64,000 nucleotides of DNA, taken from positions 241,708 through 305,707 of the forward strand of contig NZ_HE578907.1 in assembly GCF_000321005.1 (NCBI RefSeq), in the 5' to 3' direction. Source of the stretch: Anaerococcus senegalensis JC48 (GTDB lineage: Bacteria; Bacillota; Clostridia; Tissierellales; Peptoniphilaceae). Numbering within the stretch: position 1 is the stretch's first letter; each line of letters starts with the position of its first letter. The notes beneath the pieces were generated by a model. That model did not search any database, was not told the DNA's origin, and worked only from the letters and a program-made list of their open reading frames with translations. A program made the translations under genes and the position numbers. Of this stretch, positions 55,635-64,000 are shown in pieces.

Positions 55635-56857
55635 ATGGATATAGCAATCATAGGGGCAGGAGCTGCAGGTGTTTTCACTGCAATAAATGCCAAAAATAAA
55701 GAAAATAATGTATGTATAATTGAAAAAAATAACAAAATAGGAAAAAAATTATTTATAACAGGTAAGGGCAGATGTAACATTACAAATGCCAAATTTTTTG
55801 ATGAATTTCTTGAAAATATTGTAGTTAATAAAAAATTCATGTATTCATCGTTCACGAACTTTGATAATTATGCCCTAATGGATTATATGGAAAATAAGGG
55901 TTTAAAACTTGTTGTTCAAAGAGGGGATAGAGTATTCCCAAAAAGTGAAAAATCAAATGACGTAATAAAATTTTTTGAAAAATTAATTATAAAAAAACAT
56001 ATAGACTTAAAATTAAATGAAAATGTAGAAAAAGTAAAAAAAATGAAAAAGAAAAATTTATAATAAAAACAAATAAAGATTCTTATGTCTTTGATAAAGT
56101 TGTTATAGCAACTGGGGGTCTTTCTTATCCCTTAACAGGATCAACTGGAGATGGATATAAATTTGCAAAAGAATTTTCCCATAATATCATTGAGACAAAG
56201 CCAGCTTTGTGTCCAATAAAATTTAAGGATGTAGATTTAGATTCATTAAATGGAATATCTTTAAAAAATGTTTCATTAAATGTTGAAACTGATAAGAAAA
56301 AATTAAGTGAATTTGGAGATATGTTAATTGGAAAAAAATTTATAACAGGACCAATAGTGCTTACCATGTCATCTTTAATAAATAGAAGTAAAATTAAGGA
56401 AATTTATATTGACTTAAAACCTGCCTTGGATTTTGAAAAATTAGATAATAGATTATTAAGAGATTTTGAAAATGATCCAAATAAAGATATAGTAAACATA
56501 TTGAAAAAACTCCTATTAAATGCTTTTGTTGAGATTGTTTTAAAAAGAGGAGAAGTTGATTTTCACAAAAAAGCAAATCAAATTACAAAAGAAGAAAGGT
56601 TTAAATTAATAGAAGAAATAAAAAAGTTTAAATTAGAATATGATGGCCTAAGCGATGTTAAAAATGGAATAATAACATCAGGTGGAGTTGATTGTAAAGA
56701 AATAAATCCTAAAACAATGGAATCAAAAAAAGTTTCAGGCTTATATTTTGTAGGAGAAGTTACTGATGTAGATACTTTAACTGGAGGATATAATTTGCAA
56801 ATTGCCTTTTCTGAGGCTTATGCTTGTGCTGAAAATTTAAGGAGTATTGATGAGTAA
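55635..56857 (+). pseudogene. HI0933/BaiN-type FAD oxidoreductase with a frameshift
   Basis: An FAD-binding NAD(P)-type flavoprotein of the HI0933 (YhiN/BaiN) family in two frames. The first (55635-56063) has the dinucleotide motif IIGAGAAG and GKKLFITGKGRCNITN; the second continues with IKTNKDSYVFDKVVIATGG, LSYPLTGSTGDGY, and the C-terminal TSGGVDCKEINPKTMESK and GGYNLQIAFSEAY. The frames join at an A8 tract (56036-56043); one more A, or a -1 shift at the in-phase heptamer A AAA AAA, gives a continuous chain of about 407 residues (VKKNEKEKF across the join). The second frame has no ribosome site at its first ATG (56207). Sequencing error or slippage are as likely as decay. Confidence 0.88.
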
Positions 56858-58081: not shown

Positions 58082-60157
58082 ATGAAAGTAATTGTAGCGA
58101 AAAATTCTGGCTTTTGTAATGGAGTTAGAAGAAGTGTTGACCTTGCAAATAAAGCAAGTGAAAATAATAAAAATACTTATACCCTAGGACCCTTAGTTCA
58201 TAACCCTACTCAAGTTCAAATGCTTGAAGAAAAAGGTGTTGGCGTTATAGATGAAGATGAAGTATTAAATCAAAATAATTCACAAATCGTAATTAGAAGT
58301 CATGGTATTAGGGAAGAATTAAAAGATACTATAAGAAAAAATTTAAATGACGTAATAGATGCAACTTGTCCTGTTCTTTTAAATATTTATAAAAAAATAA
58401 AAGAAAAAGAAAATGAAGGATATAAAGTAGTAATTATTGGGGATAAAAATCATCCTGAAATAAAAGCTATGGCATCTTATGTAAATGATGGTATAATAAT
58501 AAAAGATGAGACTGAAGCAAAAAATATTACAAATATGTCAAAACTTTATGTTGTAAGTCAAACAACAAACAGAATTGATTTTTTTGAGAATATTGCTCAT
58601 GAGTTAGAGAAGACGAATGATGATGTAATAGTAGAAAATACAATCTGCAATGCAACTAGATTAAGACAAGAATCATGTAAAAGTCTTTCTAAAGAAGTTG
58701 ATTGTATGGTTGTTGTTGGTGGTTTTAATAGTTCAAATACAAATAAGCTTTATCAAATAGCACAAAAGTATTGTAAAAATGTTAAAAGAATAGAAACTGT
58801 TAAAGATCTACCTTTGCAAAAGCTCTCAAATTTTAATATAATAGGGGTAATCGCTGGTGCATCCACACCAGATAAGGTTATCGAGGAGGTAGTTAATAGG
58901 ATGGATGATTTAACAAATGAAGAATTAATGAACAGCATTGAAGATAGTATGAAAAAAATATATCCTAGAGATGTTGTAAATGGAACAATTATTGATGTGA
59001 AAGATGATGAGGTTTTTGTAGACATTCAATATCGTGCTGACGGAATTGTAAAACTTGATGAAATGTCTGAAGAACAAAAAGAAAATCCAAAAGAACATTT
59101 TGAAGTAGGTCAAGAAATTGAAGTATATGTAATTAAACTTGACGATGGAGAAGGAAATGTTTCATTATCTACAAGAAGAGTAGAAGGAATGAAAAATTGG
59201 AAAAACCTTAAAGAAGCTTATGAAAACGAACAAACTGTTGAAGGTGATATTACTGGATCAAATAAAGGTGGTTTAACAGCTAGAGTTATGGGAATAAATG
59301 GTTTTGTTCCAGCAAGTCAAATTGCACCATACTTTGTTAAAAACTTCAAAAAATTTGTTGGTGAACATTGGGATCTTAAAATAATTTCTATAGACGAAAG
59401 AAAAAATCGTCTTGTTTTATCAAGAAAAGATATAGTTGAAGAAAAACTTGATGAACAATGGGATGAACTAGAAGAAGGTCAAATAATTACTGGAAAAGTT
59501 GCAAGACTTACTGATTTTGGTGCATTCATAGAAATAGGTAGTTTAGATGGTTTACTTCACGTTTCTGATATAGCTTGGACTAGAGTAGAACATCCAAAGG
59601 ATGTATTAAATATTGGAGATGATATTGAAGTTAAAATATTAAAACTTAACAAAGAAAAGAACAGAATTTCTTTAGGAAGAAAACAACTTTTAGAAAAACC
59701 ATTTGCTGAATTTGTTGGTAGTCATGAGGTTGGAGATGTGATAACAGGAAAAGTTGTTAATTTATTAGACTTTGGTGCTTTCGTTGAAGTAAGCGAAGGA
59801 GTTGAAGGATTAATCCATGTTTCTGAAATTTCTTGGGATCATGTTGAAAAACCATCAGATGAATTAAACATTGGTGATGAAGTAGAAGTTAAGATTTTAA
59901 GTATTGACCCAGAAGAAGAAAAAATCGGTCTTTCAATAAAAGCTTTAAAAGAAGCACCAGAAAGAACTGAAAGAAAACCAAGAAGAAATAACGAAGAAAA
60001 CAAAAACAGATCTAATGCAAAAGCTAAAAGAAGAGCAGAAAAGAAAGAATCAAATAATGAATTTGGTGACAATGATTTAAATAATAACATTGGATTTGCT
60101 ATAGAAGAAGTATTATCAGGTATTGAAATAGAAGACGAAGATTCTACTGAAGAATAA
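58082..60157 (+). CDS. ispH-rpsA: Fusion of IspH (HMBPP reductase) and ribosomal protein S1
   Basis: A 691-residue two-part protein. Residues 1-282 are IspH, the [4Fe-4S] enzyme that makes IPP and DMAPP at the end of the MEP pathway; cluster ligands are C12 (SGFCNGV), C96 (ATCPVL) and C189 (TICNAT). Residues about 297-630 hold four S1 RNA-binding domains (for example ITGKVARLTDFGAFIEIGSL region, LLHVSDIAW; LIHVSEISW), the last two most canonical. A Lys/Arg- then acidic tail ends it. This fusion is known from Clostridia, where it supplies S1. No break is seen between the parts. Confidence 0.95.
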   Translation: MKVIVAKNSGFCNGVRRSVDLANKASENNKNTYTLGPLVHNPTQVQMLEEKGVGVIDEDEVLNQNNSQIVIRSHGIREELKDTIRKNLNDVIDATCPVLLNIYKKIKEKENEGYKVVIIGDKNHPEIKAMASYVNDGIIIKDETEAKNITNMSKLYVVSQTTNRIDFFENIAHELEKTNDDVIVENTICNATRLRQESCKSLSKEVDCMVVVGGFNSSNTNKLYQIAQKYCKNVKRIETVKDLPLQKLSNFNIIGVIAGASTPDKVIEEVVNRMDDLTNEELMNSIEDSMKKIYPRDVVNGTIIDVKDDEVFVDIQYRADGIVKLDEMSEEQKENPKEHFEVGQEIEVYVIKLDDGEGNVSLSTRRVEGMKNWKNLKEAYENEQTVEGDITGSNKGGLTARVMGINGFVPASQIAPYFVKNFKKFVGEHWDLKIISIDERKNRLVLSRKDIVEEKLDEQWDELEEGQIITGKVARLTDFGAFIEIGSLDGLLHVSDIAWTRVEHPKDVLNIGDDIEVKILKLNKEKNRISLGRKQLLEKPFAEFVGSHEVGDVITGKVVNLLDFGAFVEVSEGVEGLIHVSEISWDHVEKPSDELNIGDEVEVKILSIDPEEEKIGLSIKALKEAPERTERKPRRNNEENKNRSNAKAKRRAEKKESNNEFGDNDLNNNIGFAIEEVLSGIEIEDEDSTEE

Positions 60158-60180: not shown

Positions 60181-60212
60181 AAAAAGAGATGATTAAAATC
60201 ATCTCTTTTTGG
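60181..60212 (+). terminator. Terminator of the efp-rpsA block
   Basis: A perfect 13-bp stem AAAAAGAGATGAT/ATCATCTCTTTTT with a TAAA loop. It ends just before the miaB ribosome site. Confidence 0.85.
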
Positions 60213-60226
60213 TTTTAAGGAGATAT

Positions 60227-61579
60227 ATGCAATTAAAAAATAATACAATATATAAGGATTATTTTAAAGGTAAAAAATATAATATAACAACTTTTGGTTG
60301 CCAGATGAACGAACATGATTCTGAAAGAATATCCTATATTTTAGAAGATTTAGGTTATACACTGACAGACGATAGAAACGAAGCTGATTTTATTTTATTT
60401 AATACTTGCTTGGTAAGAGAAAATGCAGAATTAAAATTATATGGGCAAGTTAGCAGTTTAAAAAAATTAAAAGAAGAAAATCCCGAAAAAATAATTGCTG
60501 TGTCAGGTTGCATGATGCAAACAAGTGTAGCTAGAGAAGTTATTGAAAAAAAACATAGAGAAGTTGATATAATTTTTGGAACAAAAAATATAAATTCTTT
60601 ACCTGATCTTTTATTTAAATATCTAGAAACTGGAGAAAGGGTTATAGATGTTTCTGAAGATAATGTCAAAGATGATTATGTAAATTATAATAGCAAAAAT
60701 AATTTCCAAGCATATGTAAATATAATGACAGGATGTGATAATTTCTGCTCTTACTGTATAGTGCCTCAATCAAGAGGAAGAGAAGAAAGTAGAAGACCAT
60801 CTCATATAATTGAAGAGATTGAGAATTTAGTAAAAAATGGCTATAAAGAGATTACTCTTCTAGGGCAAAATGTAAATTCTTATGGAAATAAGTCTGATTT
60901 TAATGTAACTTTTCCAGAACTTTTAGAAAAATGTGCACAAATTAAAGGTCTAAAAAGACTTAGATTTACAACAAGCCATCCAAAGGACTTATCTGATGAT
61001 TTAATCAGGGTGATTAAAGAAAATGATAATATTTGCAATTATTTCCACCTACCAATGCAGTCAGGTTCCGATAAGGTTCTTAAAGATATGAATAGAAAAT
61101 ACAACAAAGAGCAATATCTAGAAAAGGCTAGAAAATTAAGGGAAGAAATTCCAAATATAGCAATTTCTACTGATATTATTGTGGGCTATCCTACAGAAAC
61201 AGAAGAAGATTTCCAAGAAACTTTGGATGTTTGTAGAAAAGTTGGTTTTGATACAGCATTTACATTTAAATATTCACCAAGACCAAAAACAAAAGCAGCA
61301 AAACTTGAACCGATTGATGAAAAAATAGTTCAAGATAGGTTTGATAGATTACTAGATACCTTATATCCTGTATTTAATGAAAAAAATAGAGAATATGTTG
61401 GAAAAATTGTTGAGGTTTTATTAGAATCTGAAAGTAAAAATAACAAGAATGTTCTTACTGGAAGAACAGATACCTTTAAGCTAGTTCATGTTGAAGCTGA
61501 TAAGAAATTAATAGGACAGATTGTAAAAGTAAAAATAACTGATAATACATCATTTACTATATCAGGCCATCTCGTTTAA
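60227..61579 (+). CDS. miaB: tRNA-2-methylthio-N6-isopentenyladenosine synthase MiaB
   Basis: A 450-residue radical SAM methylthiotransferase acting on A37 of tRNA. The N-terminal UPF0004 domain carries TFGCQMNEHDSE and NTCLVRENAE with SGCMMQ (three cluster cysteines); the SAM cluster motif is CDNFCSYCIVPQSRGRE; the C-terminal TRAM domain begins near 385. ATG at 60227 lies 5 nt after AAGGAGAT; a TTG at 60209 would start inside the terminator. It precedes the V-ATPase genes. Confidence 0.96.
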   Translation: MQLKNNTIYKDYFKGKKYNITTFGCQMNEHDSERISYILEDLGYTLTDDRNEADFILFNTCLVRENAELKLYGQVSSLKKLKEENPEKIIAVSGCMMQTSVAREVIEKKHREVDIIFGTKNINSLPDLLFKYLETGERVIDVSEDNVKDDYVNYNSKNNFQAYVNIMTGCDNFCSYCIVPQSRGREESRRPSHIIEEIENLVKNGYKEITLLGQNVNSYGNKSDFNVTFPELLEKCAQIKGLKRLRFTTSHPKDLSDDLIRVIKENDNICNYFHLPMQSGSDKVLKDMNRKYNKEQYLEKARKLREEIPNIAISTDIIVGYPTETEEDFQETLDVCRKVGFDTAFTFKYSPRPKTKAAKLEPIDEKIVQDRFDRLLDTLYPVFNEKNREYVGKIVEVLLESESKNNKNVLTGRTDTFKLVHVEADKKLIGQIVKVKITDNTSFTISGHLV

Positions 61580-61598: not shown

Positions 61599-62576
61599 AT
61601 GAAAGCTTATGTAGTAAAAGCAAAAGCTAAACTTGGTAAGTTGCCTACAAAAGAAATATGTAGAGATTTATTGTATGAAGATAATTTTGAAAGAAAATTA
61701 GATATAATTAGAAATAATAATAGTGAAATACCAAATGTTAGTTCTAAAAAAGATTTAGAAATTTTTCTTTCAAATAAATTATATGATGATCTAAATTCAT
61801 TTTTGAAATTTTTAAAAGGTGAAGAAAAGGAATTTTTCATAAAATATATTTCAAAATTTGAATTACAACTTATGCAATTAATAGTTCAAGCTATTATTAA
61901 CAATCATTTAGATGACAGTTTAGATATTATAAAAAGAGAAAAATTTTCACATGATATAAATGTCTCAAAAGATGATGATTTTGAAAGTTTTGTAAGAAAA
62001 TCTAAATCAAGTAAGTATTATAGGACTCTTTATCCATTTTTAAATGAAAACATAGAAAAGAAGTCTATTATATTTTTAATTTCAAATTCTTTAAATAAAT
62101 TATATTATAGACAATTACTTGAAGAGACAAAGAAGTTACCAAAGAATATTGGCTTTGAATTAAAAGATTTTGTAGGTAAGCAAATAGATATTTTTAATAT
62201 AGAAATGTTATATAGGTTAAAGAAAAACTTCTCTCTAAATAACTATGAAATATTTAATTATTTAATTGAGGGGGGTAAATATTTAAGAACAAAAGACTTG
62301 AAAAAATTATCAAGTTTAGATTTTAATAAATTTAAAGATGAGATTTTAAAAACAAATTATAAAGACTTATTTCTTTCTACCTATAACTTTTACAAGGCTA
62401 AAGAAGATTTGTTAAGTGAAAATTCAAAGAAATTATCAAGTTCTAAACATGACTTGTTAAATTTAATATATATAGTAGATATGATGACAATTTCAAATAA
62501 AAATATTATAAGTATATTAGAATTTGATGAAACATTTGATAAGGATGAAAAGAAACATTATATAATAAAGAGGTGA
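61599..62576 (+). CDS. atpC: V/A-type ATPase subunit C (AC39 family)
   Basis: A 325-residue subunit of the central stalk socket (subunit d of eukaryotes) that links the rotor ring to the catalytic head. It matches the AC39 family in three repeats: YVVKAKAKLGKLP at the start, DIFNIEMLYRLKKNFSLNNYEIF (motif DxxNIxxLxRxK) near 195-215 and the LIEGGKYLRTKDLKKLSSL segment. A short chain lacking membrane helices, as usual. It begins 19 nt after miaB with an AAAGAAAGAAGG site and opens the V/A-ATPase operon. Confidence 0.88.
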   Translation: MKAYVVKAKAKLGKLPTKEICRDLLYEDNFERKLDIIRNNNSEIPNVSSKKDLEIFLSNKLYDDLNSFLKFLKGEEKEFFIKYISKFELQLMQLIVQAIINNHLDDSLDIIKREKFSHDINVSKDDDFESFVRKSKSSKYYRTLYPFLNENIEKKSIIFLISNSLNKLYYRQLLEETKKLPKNIGFELKDFVGKQIDIFNIEMLYRLKKNFSLNNYEIFNYLIEGGKYLRTKDLKKLSSLDFNKFKDEILKTNYKDLFLSTYNFYKAKEDLLSENSKKLSSSKHDLLNLIYIVDMMTISNKNIISILEFDETFDKDEKKHYIIKR

Positions 62577-62580
62577 TAAT

Positions 62581-63453
62581 ATGGCTGTCGAAAAAATGCA
62601 CTTGGTTAATATTATGGCAAGGCTAGATAATCTTGATGATTTTTTAGAAGATTTAATAGATATTGATGAATTTGACCAAGTTGATGCTTTTAGACAAATA
62701 CAAAACAGAGAATTTTCAATTAGAGCCAGTGAAGAAAATATTGAAAAAACTGAGGACTTTAATGATCTTGAAAGTTTTGATAAAGTAGATCCTTCATTTA
62801 TAAATAAACTTGAAGATATAAAAGATTTTCTAAATTTAGATGATTCTAAGGGCGGTAGAAGAATTAATGATGAAAAACTTAAAAATTTGCTAGAAATATT
62901 TGAAGAGAATATTGAAAAGAAAAAAGCCTTAGAAGAAAGAAATGACAAACTTGAAGAGTATTTAAACAATTTGCAAGCTCTTGAAAATGAAGAAATTGAT
63001 ATAAACAAAATAACAAGTTTAAATTATTTCAATTATAGGCTAGGGGAAGTTAGTAAAGATGGAAGATTTATCTTAAAAAATAACTATGAATCTATTCCAT
63101 CACTAATTATTCATTTACAAAAAAATGATCCTGATATAGAAAAAAATAAAGAGGCCTTAAAAAGTATTTATAGCATAGATGATGAAACATCTAAGCTAAG
63201 AAAAGATACAGATAATATCATTAAAAATGAAAAGGATAATATAAATAAAGTAAGCTTAGAATTGTCAAAAGATTACGATAAAAAAACAAAAGAAGATGCT
63301 AATAAATTATATGATGATATATTAAAAGAGGCAGATTATAAGAATAAAGAAATTGAAAGCTTCTATGAAAAGCAAAAAGTAGAAAGTGAAAAAGTATTTA
63401 AGGCTAAGAAAGAAAACTTAATTAAGGAATTTTTCAAAAAAATTATTGAATAA
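62581..63453 (+). CDS. V/A-type ATPase subunit I N-terminal half fused to a peripheral-stalk-like coiled coil
   Basis: A 290-residue protein. Residues 1-183 look like the cytosolic arm of V/A-ATPase subunit I: the MAVEKMHLVNIMARLDN opening, a helical span, then SLNYFNYRLGEVSKDG and YESIPSLIIHLQKN, which is the strand-helix segment of the distal lobe. Residues about 188-290 are a different, highly charged continuous helix (LKSIYSIDDETSKLRKDTDN ... AKKENLIKEFFKKIIE) that resembles the G/H (NtpF/AhaH) stalk subunit, which often precedes subunit I. No in-frame start codon lies at the junction (near 63130). Transmembrane helices are absent. The rest of subunit I restarts at 63471. Confidence 0.65.
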   Translation: MAVEKMHLVNIMARLDNLDDFLEDLIDIDEFDQVDAFRQIQNREFSIRASEENIEKTEDFNDLESFDKVDPSFINKLEDIKDFLNLDDSKGGRRINDEKLKNLLEIFEENIEKKKALEERNDKLEEYLNNLQALENEEIDINKITSLNYFNYRLGEVSKDGRFILKNNYESIPSLIIHLQKNDPDIEKNKEALKSIYSIDDETSKLRKDTDNIIKNEKDNINKVSLELSKDYDKKTKEDANKLYDDILKEADYKNKEIESFYEKQKVESEKVFKAKKENLIKEFFKKIIE

Positions 63454-63470
63454 TAAAGAAAGGAGGTTTT

Positions 63471-64000
63471 ATGAATATATTAGAAAAATTTGGCTTTAAA
63501 GATAGGTCAAGAAATAACCGTGACCAATCTATAGAAAGTGGAAATGAAGATTATCTATTAGTTTATCCAAAAAGTGTAGAAGATGAAGTAAATAGGACTA
63601 TATCTTCGCTTGGCTTTATTGACGAGGATATACCAGATGGAAAAAGTATTGATGAAATAAAAAAAGAATATGAAAATAATAAGGCTAAACTAAAAGAAAT
63701 AGACAATAAACTTAAAAAAATAAAAGATGATAATATCGATGATCTTAAAAATTTACCTAAAACTATAGATTTTTATAAAAAATCATCAAAGCTTAAGGAT
63801 AAAATGTTAAAGGGTCGAAAATATTTTTATTTATCAGGGTGGGTCCCAGAGTCTAAAATACAATTAGTTAGAGATACAGTCGACAAGTATGAAGATAGCT
63901 TAGTCGACCAAAAAAAAATAGCCAAACAATAGCTAATCCACCTACAAAGTTAAAAAATAATAAAATAACTAGGCCTTTTGAATTCTTGGTAAATATGTAT
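63471..64000 (+). CDS. V/A-type ATPase subunit I, second part, with a frameshift, cut by the window end
   Basis: Own ribosome site AAAGGAGG and ATG. Residues 24-50 (NEDYLLVYPKSVEDEV and NRTISSLGF) and 116-130 (KYFYLSGWVPESKI) are the standard continuation of subunit I after the point where the previous gene stops resembling it. The frame closes at 63932 after 153 residues, before the membrane part. A -1 shift at an A9 tract (63910-63918) gives KKNSQTIANPPTKLKNNK and TRPFEFLVNMY, the normal lead-in to the membrane domain, which stays open to 64000. So the gene either needs a shift at this site or has an assembly error there. Confidence 0.7.
63910..63918 (+). promoter_or_regulatory. Candidate -1 frameshift site (A9 tract) in subunit I
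   Basis: Codons CAA AAA AAA ATA hold the in-phase slippery heptamer A AAA AAA (63911-63917). A -1 shift or one added A joins the 153-residue frame to the membrane-domain frame. Only a weak TAGC/GCTA hairpin follows. Confidence 0.4.

Follow-up and report, generated by a model that had tools for sequence, protein, structure and literature searches.

A predicted split of V/A-type ATPase subunit I, with a stalk-like helix on its first half, across the genus Anaerococcus

The stator of a rotary ATPase has to withstand the torque of the motor, and in F-type ATP synthases fusions of the b subunit join a stalk helix covalently to a neighbour. In V/A-type ATPases, subunit I (subunit a; PF01496; Thermus 6qum_N, cytosolic arm 3rrk) combines a cytosolic arm with a membrane domain, and the peripheral stalks contain subunit G/H (AhaH, TIGR02926). 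PMC7367684 describes two stalks per enzyme (a1E2G2, that is, two G per I), with the N-terminal region of the EG stalk sitting on the distal lobe of the arm. We analyzed a 64,000-nucleotide stretch of the genome of Anaerococcus senegalensis JC48 (G000, 1.8 Mb; contig 1, 241708-305707; hereafter the window), in the final 2.4 kb of which a V/A-type ATPase operon begins. Subunit I of this operon has the same arm and membrane domain once its halves are combined, but its reading frames give two chains that part at the distal-lobe hairpin, the first of which bears a helix of about 100 residues. This helical tail resembles AhaH G/H in its size, its all-helical make-up and its operon company, and differs from it in being joined covalently to the arm at its N-terminal end by gene fusion and in having diverged beyond a clear profile match. 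The F-type b subunit fusions concern a different enzyme type and different subunits, and we know of none that joins half of an a/I arm to a stalk. Searches of the open-access literature turned up no account of subunit I being split or fused to G, nor of this Anaerococcus operon.

The reading frames of the operon encode two predicted chains. The first, which we call I-N-G, has about 290 aa; the second, I-C, measures 453-477 aa in most loci and comprises the return arm and the membrane domain. Comparison with sister genera shows that the G/H-like stalk gene that opens their operons here occupies the loop between two distal-lobe strands, within the gene for subunit I; a stop codon and a second start come after it. 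We consider it probable that, of the two V/A-type ATPases of Anaerococcus, one has had its stator rewired throughout the genus, so that I-N-G and I-C rebuild the arm from its halves and the arm-stalk joint becomes covalent at one stalk; the pairing of the halves, the covalent anchoring in the complex, its assembly and its stoichiometry are what we infer. The features of the split gene are as follows:

62581-63453, + strand: fused frame I-N-G, 290 aa, with an ATG start and its stop at 63451-63453
62581-63132, + strand: I-N, the N-terminal half of subunit I (residues 1-184), with the proximal-lobe strand, the outward coil and the first half of the distal lobe
63142-63450, + strand: G/H-like stalk helix (residues 188-290), joined to I-N in the same reading frame and assigned from profile and hhalign matches
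63451-63470, + strand: stop of the fused frame and putative ribosome-binding site AAAGGAGG of the next frame (site 63459-63466)
63471-63932, + strand: start of I-C, 153 aa from an ATG, with the second half of the distal lobe, the return coil and the proximal strand (NCBIfam subunit I model, 3.2e-6)
63905-64000, + strand: A-rich run where the frame changes, and opening codons of the remaining I-C, which continues beyond the window
L006:5694-6593, contig extension past the window: rest of I-C, 299 aa, with the membrane domain

A first-pass annotation of the window had described a 290-residue frame that starts like subunit I and then turns into a helix of about 100 residues, and a second frame with a strong ribosome-binding site that restarts where subunit I should continue. 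Both frames, and with them the predicted split, were confirmed. More specifically, residues 1 to about 183 of the first frame align with the N-terminal half of intact subunit I proteins from sister genera (best E 4.3e-23; profile E 5.0e-35), and the second frame takes up where these proteins carry on in the alignment. The N-terminal cytosolic arm of subunit I can be followed through its proximal lobe, coil and distal lobe. In the AlphaFold model of a relative (L075), strands are predicted at residues 6-14, 150-157 and 175-178, and the tail forms a long helix of 104 residues (186-289) that starts right after the distal-lobe strand. Subunit I is not encoded as a single polypeptide in this operon type: all 32 operon loci read, which represent 32 of the 33 fused loci described below (G010 was left out), have a stop codon separating the halves and a second start. 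Searches of Pfam, NCBIfam and PDB sequences with the 290-aa frame returned nothing usable, so that the search against profile hidden Markov models (HMMs) proposed in the annotation produced a match for the second frame and none in Pfam or NCBIfam for the first. Since no named HMM recognizes the 290-aa frame, its identity rests on its relatives in the sister genera. A phmmer search with intact subunit I did not align the hairpin to any solved chain.

The comparison of related genomes, also proposed in the annotation, revealed a match over at least residues 1-281 of the 290-aa frame in 33 of the 130 family genomes, corresponding to all 31 genomes of the window's genus together with G068 and G069 of a second genus. 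Another genome, G065, was left uncounted with only residues 1-118 present, at a contig edge. In an order-wide search (249 genomes), the same 33 rank at the top with E-values of 1.9e-98 or better, and the other matches listed fall on intact I frames, on the free small gene, on pieces at contig edges or on arm-only frames; the table was sorted by E-value, an order in which full-length fusions would rank at the top and arm-only paralogues may be missed. A class-wide sample of 391 genomes contained the fused frame only in the three genomes belonging to the genus, and a scan of named contigs found 27 loci (24 from Anaerococcus and three from Peptoniphilaceae or Tissierellia metagenome-assembled genomes). 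No relative of the fused frame was found in a scan of viral contigs. All 32 operons read have the gene order C, fused frame, I-C, K, F, E, A, B, D, with a MiaB-like gene upstream in all 31 operons whose contig extends that far.

An ordinary subunit I gene could also have been broken by errors, making the two frames a pseudogene or an assembly artefact. The window offers some grounds for this reading, in the form of frame changes in the I-C and E genes of its operon and of a gene at 55635-56857, presumably encoding a flavoprotein, that is spread over two frames and suggests frame errors or indels in the assembly. The record of A. hydrogenalis DSM 7454 has other breaks in the same genes, and the breaks in both records indicate that such assemblies carry errors of this kind. 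However, 32 of the 33 genomes with the fused frame have it uninterrupted, the exception being G010, which by its sequence appears to be the A. hydrogenalis type strain and the frames of which are broken at places other than those of the window. Pairwise ratios of nonsynonymous to synonymous substitution rates (dN/dS) are low in the pairs tested, at 0.01-0.13 for I-N (12 pairs), 0.05-0.21 for the tail (computable in 10 of 12 pairs) and 0.06-0.08 for the membrane part of I-C (3 pairs), and the tail is absent from all eight intact subunit I proteins aligned. Open frames, low dN/dS and an added tail refute the artefact reading for the split and the fusion, and we rate it as very improbable; the fused gene is, to judge from its sequence, in use.

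The second half of subunit I was expected in the annotation to be a separate chain, and the new start in every locus agrees with this, whereas the end assigned to that chain after 153 residues proved false. In 20 of the 32 loci, I-C is read as one frame of 453-477 aa, and in 10 as one of 585-687 aa, so that it is open in 30; in the remaining two (the window and G036), the frame changes at an A-rich run, which splits I-C into 153 and 299 aa. Position 63932 is accordingly not, by this comparison, the natural end of I-C in the window, and a frame error or artefact is the likeliest reading of the stop found there. The membrane domain with the conserved arginine helix is present: I-C of a relative (L010) matches PF01496 (1.4e-29), and the SFTRVGAFAINHVG block, which we take to be that helix, is invariant in 14/14 aligned I-C sequences.

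Readthrough of the stop codon would give a single long subunit I in which G forms an inserted loop. In line with this, I-C starts in the frame of I-N-G in 22 of the 32 loci, and in eight of these a TTG directly after the stop makes a separate start less plain. In the other 10 loci, including the window, I-C starts out of frame, and TAA, TAG and TGA are all found as the stop between the two chains. Readthrough is therefore not the rule, and we regard it as extremely improbable. The restart site is AGGAGG-like in the window and in some relatives, though not in all; elsewhere the restart abuts or overlaps the stop. An internal start releasing a free G was sought at residues 166-216 in the 32 loci, and none was found in the window and none that is conserved. 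Candidates occur in seven loci (L054, L055, L068, L069, L070, L072 and L077), at differing places, and their Shine-Dalgarno score (4 of 6) equals that of many true starts.

The identity of the tail was examined in nine sister-genus operons (L038-L044, L056, L057), which share the order of C, K, F, E, A and B with the window's operon. Contrary to the latter, these operons have G as a separate first gene and subunit I as one chain of 641-663 aa, the order being small open reading frame (ORF), C, intact I, K, F, E, A, B. The other subunits of these operons are accounted for, and the small ORF is therefore G/H by elimination. Phmmer ties it to the fused frame in seven of the nine operons (E 1e-5 to 6e-10); the remaining two were assigned by position. 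In a search with a profile of the nine free G genes, the fused tail is the best match in all 31 genomes of the genus (window E 9.0e-16). Profile-profile comparison (hhalign) aligns the tail with the free gene over 103 columns end to end (99.2%, E 1.7e-19), placing it among the G/H homologues of the same operon type. The same profile found no convincing free copy of G elsewhere in the 31 genomes: only two matches outside the fused tail reach an E-value of 0.01 or better, both weak, one in a 457-aa frame of G021 and the other in a 437-aa frame of G009. The free gene is also gone from its former place before C in the operons read; directly before C, the window has the MiaB-like gene and the sister genera have the free G gene. 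The match of the tail to the free gene, together with the lack of a convincing free copy in the genus, places a G/H-like gene within the distal-lobe hairpin of subunit I. Thus the joining of an arm half to its stalk partner, which the annotation had postulated for the window, is found genus-wide, and the annotation's idea of a re-wired stator is supported as largely right.

The assignment of the coiled coil to the G/H families stood for the stalk family of this operon type, and weakly for the AhaH type. Hhalign of the tail with the AhaH-type G of the second ATPase operon of the genome gave 29%, and the free G family gave 7% with that same G. The tail has no match among the AhaH and V-ATPase G profiles of Pfam and NCBIfam, and two of its nine free homologues have a weak NCBIfam subunit H match (best 1.5e-4). 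Given these low scores, the name G/H for the tail rests on place and elimination. A PDB search with the free-G profile returned coiled-coil noise only (apolipoprotein A-I at 0.017, chloroplast b' at 0.84).

The second, ordinary V/A-type operon (L007) is located near 1.30 Mb of the same genome:

L007: G/H (108 aa), I (646 aa), K, E, C, F, A, B, D

Its AhaH-type G and its single-chain subunit I are both matched in 31/31 genomes of the genus, with the frame broken in G010 for the former and in G037 for the latter. The annotation had named a complete separate G/H and an intact subunit I elsewhere in the operon as grounds for rejecting its inference; no separate G/H was found in the operon of the window, and both genes do exist in this paralogous operon. 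An alternative is that the tail is an extension of the arm's own coil and that the second operon supplies G. Some intact I proteins align past residue 183, coil to coil, which agrees with such an extension, as does the presence of the second G across the genus. On the other side, the tail matches the free sister gene over its full length, that gene is missing from its old place, and the G of the second operon is hardly related to the tail. We consider the coil extension unlikely.

In the rewired stator that we favor, I-N and I-C would find one another and rebuild the cytosolic arm. The G helix would emerge straight from the distal lobe in the same chain, its N-terminal end being the place where a stalk G normally merely touches the arm, and would pair with subunit E and run up to A3B3. 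The joint between arm and peripheral stalk would thereby turn covalent at one stalk, and the break would shift to the interface of I-N and I-C within the arm. The operon also offers a gene that has lodged in a loop of a neighboring subunit, at the site where the two products touch. If true, this natural enzyme has one arm-stalk contact as a peptide bond and the arm cut instead, which would allow a direct test of what the contact is for. In eukaryotic V-ATPases, arm-stalk contacts are where the enzyme reversibly comes apart. It may be asked whether covalent anchoring abolishes V1-Vo separation and auto-inhibition, and whether one arm per stalk is mechanically better. In species with a single arm, the G of the second stalk could come from a second I-N-G with an unpaired half or from the second operon, or the enzyme could have one stalk.

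A further reading concerns the number of arms. Two I-N-G chains may dock on one membrane-bound I-C, so that neither peripheral stalk shares its arm half or its covalent G with the other, and a tandem duplication would complete the second arm. The arm half of I-C is indeed tandemly duplicated in 10 of the 32 loci (L051, L054 and L058-L065, with the I-C of 585-687 aa), nine of which belong to a single Anaerococcus clade, the tenth being that of G068, from another genus. Among three close species, dN/dS is low in both copies (0.11-0.39 and 0.04-0.07), the first copy being less constrained. Soluble arm-only paralogues of subunit I, 344-355 aa long and ending before the membrane domain, are found directly upstream of the full I in G232, G233, G234, G179 and G185:

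L105, L106, L107, L112, L113: V-ATPase operons with an arm-only paralogue, in two other families of the order (Tissierellales)

These frames, at least five in number, were spotted through odd frame lengths among the matches listed, and the I frames of L108 and L114 (371 aa), which reach contig ends, were excluded from the set. G220 encodes a 468-aa soluble arm (L111:2278-3684), the C-terminal part of which matches its own free G (35%, E 8e-16). As in I-N-G, an arm of subunit I carries a G copy at its C-terminal end; in contrast to I-N-G, the G220 protein is an added paralogue, its operon retaining the free G and the full I, and its G comes after a complete arm instead of an arm half. The operon of its relative G219 has no arm-G gene.

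Tandem arm halves and soluble arm paralogues together suggest a design of one arm per stalk and make it a reading to be taken seriously. However, a single arm half is present in 20 of the 32 loci and in the close kin of the window, the first copy is the less constrained, and the structure model of the duplicated chain is poor. On the tree of the fused frame (32 rows), the two-arm state requires two changes, either gains or losses. Holding all first copies as one clade is marginally rejected (p 0.041), holding the nine first copies without G068 gives p 0.2, and holding all copies together is not rejected (p 0.217), with long branches involved. The two-arm stator is thus a tentative proposal that we lean against, and equally tentative is the view that the tandem arm halves of some Anaerococcus and the arm-only and arm-G paralogues of other families are separate routes to one arm per stalk.

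The two genes preceding the fused frame are:

60209-61579, + strand: MiaB-like gene, which we take to be MiaB from its sequence, directly upstream of subunit C
61599-62576, + strand: subunit C, 325 aa, the first ATPase gene of the operon, assigned by phmmer

Phmmer links this subunit C to the C gene of all nine sister-genus operons (E 1e-13 to 1e-17). Past the window, the contig (L006) continues with the 299-aa subunit I piece, followed by K, F, E, A, B and D. Subunit E lies there in two frames (L006:7283-7904), and is a single frame of 192-206 aa in the other 31 operons. The closest named relative among the genome contigs is A. hydrogenalis DSM 7454, with 98% identity on the best protein segment and a DNA identity of 94.9% over 10,167 columns. 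Finally, a 691-aa frame at 58082-60157 of the window resembles a fusion of IspH to ribosomal protein S1 repeats, which we presume to be the one known in Clostridia.
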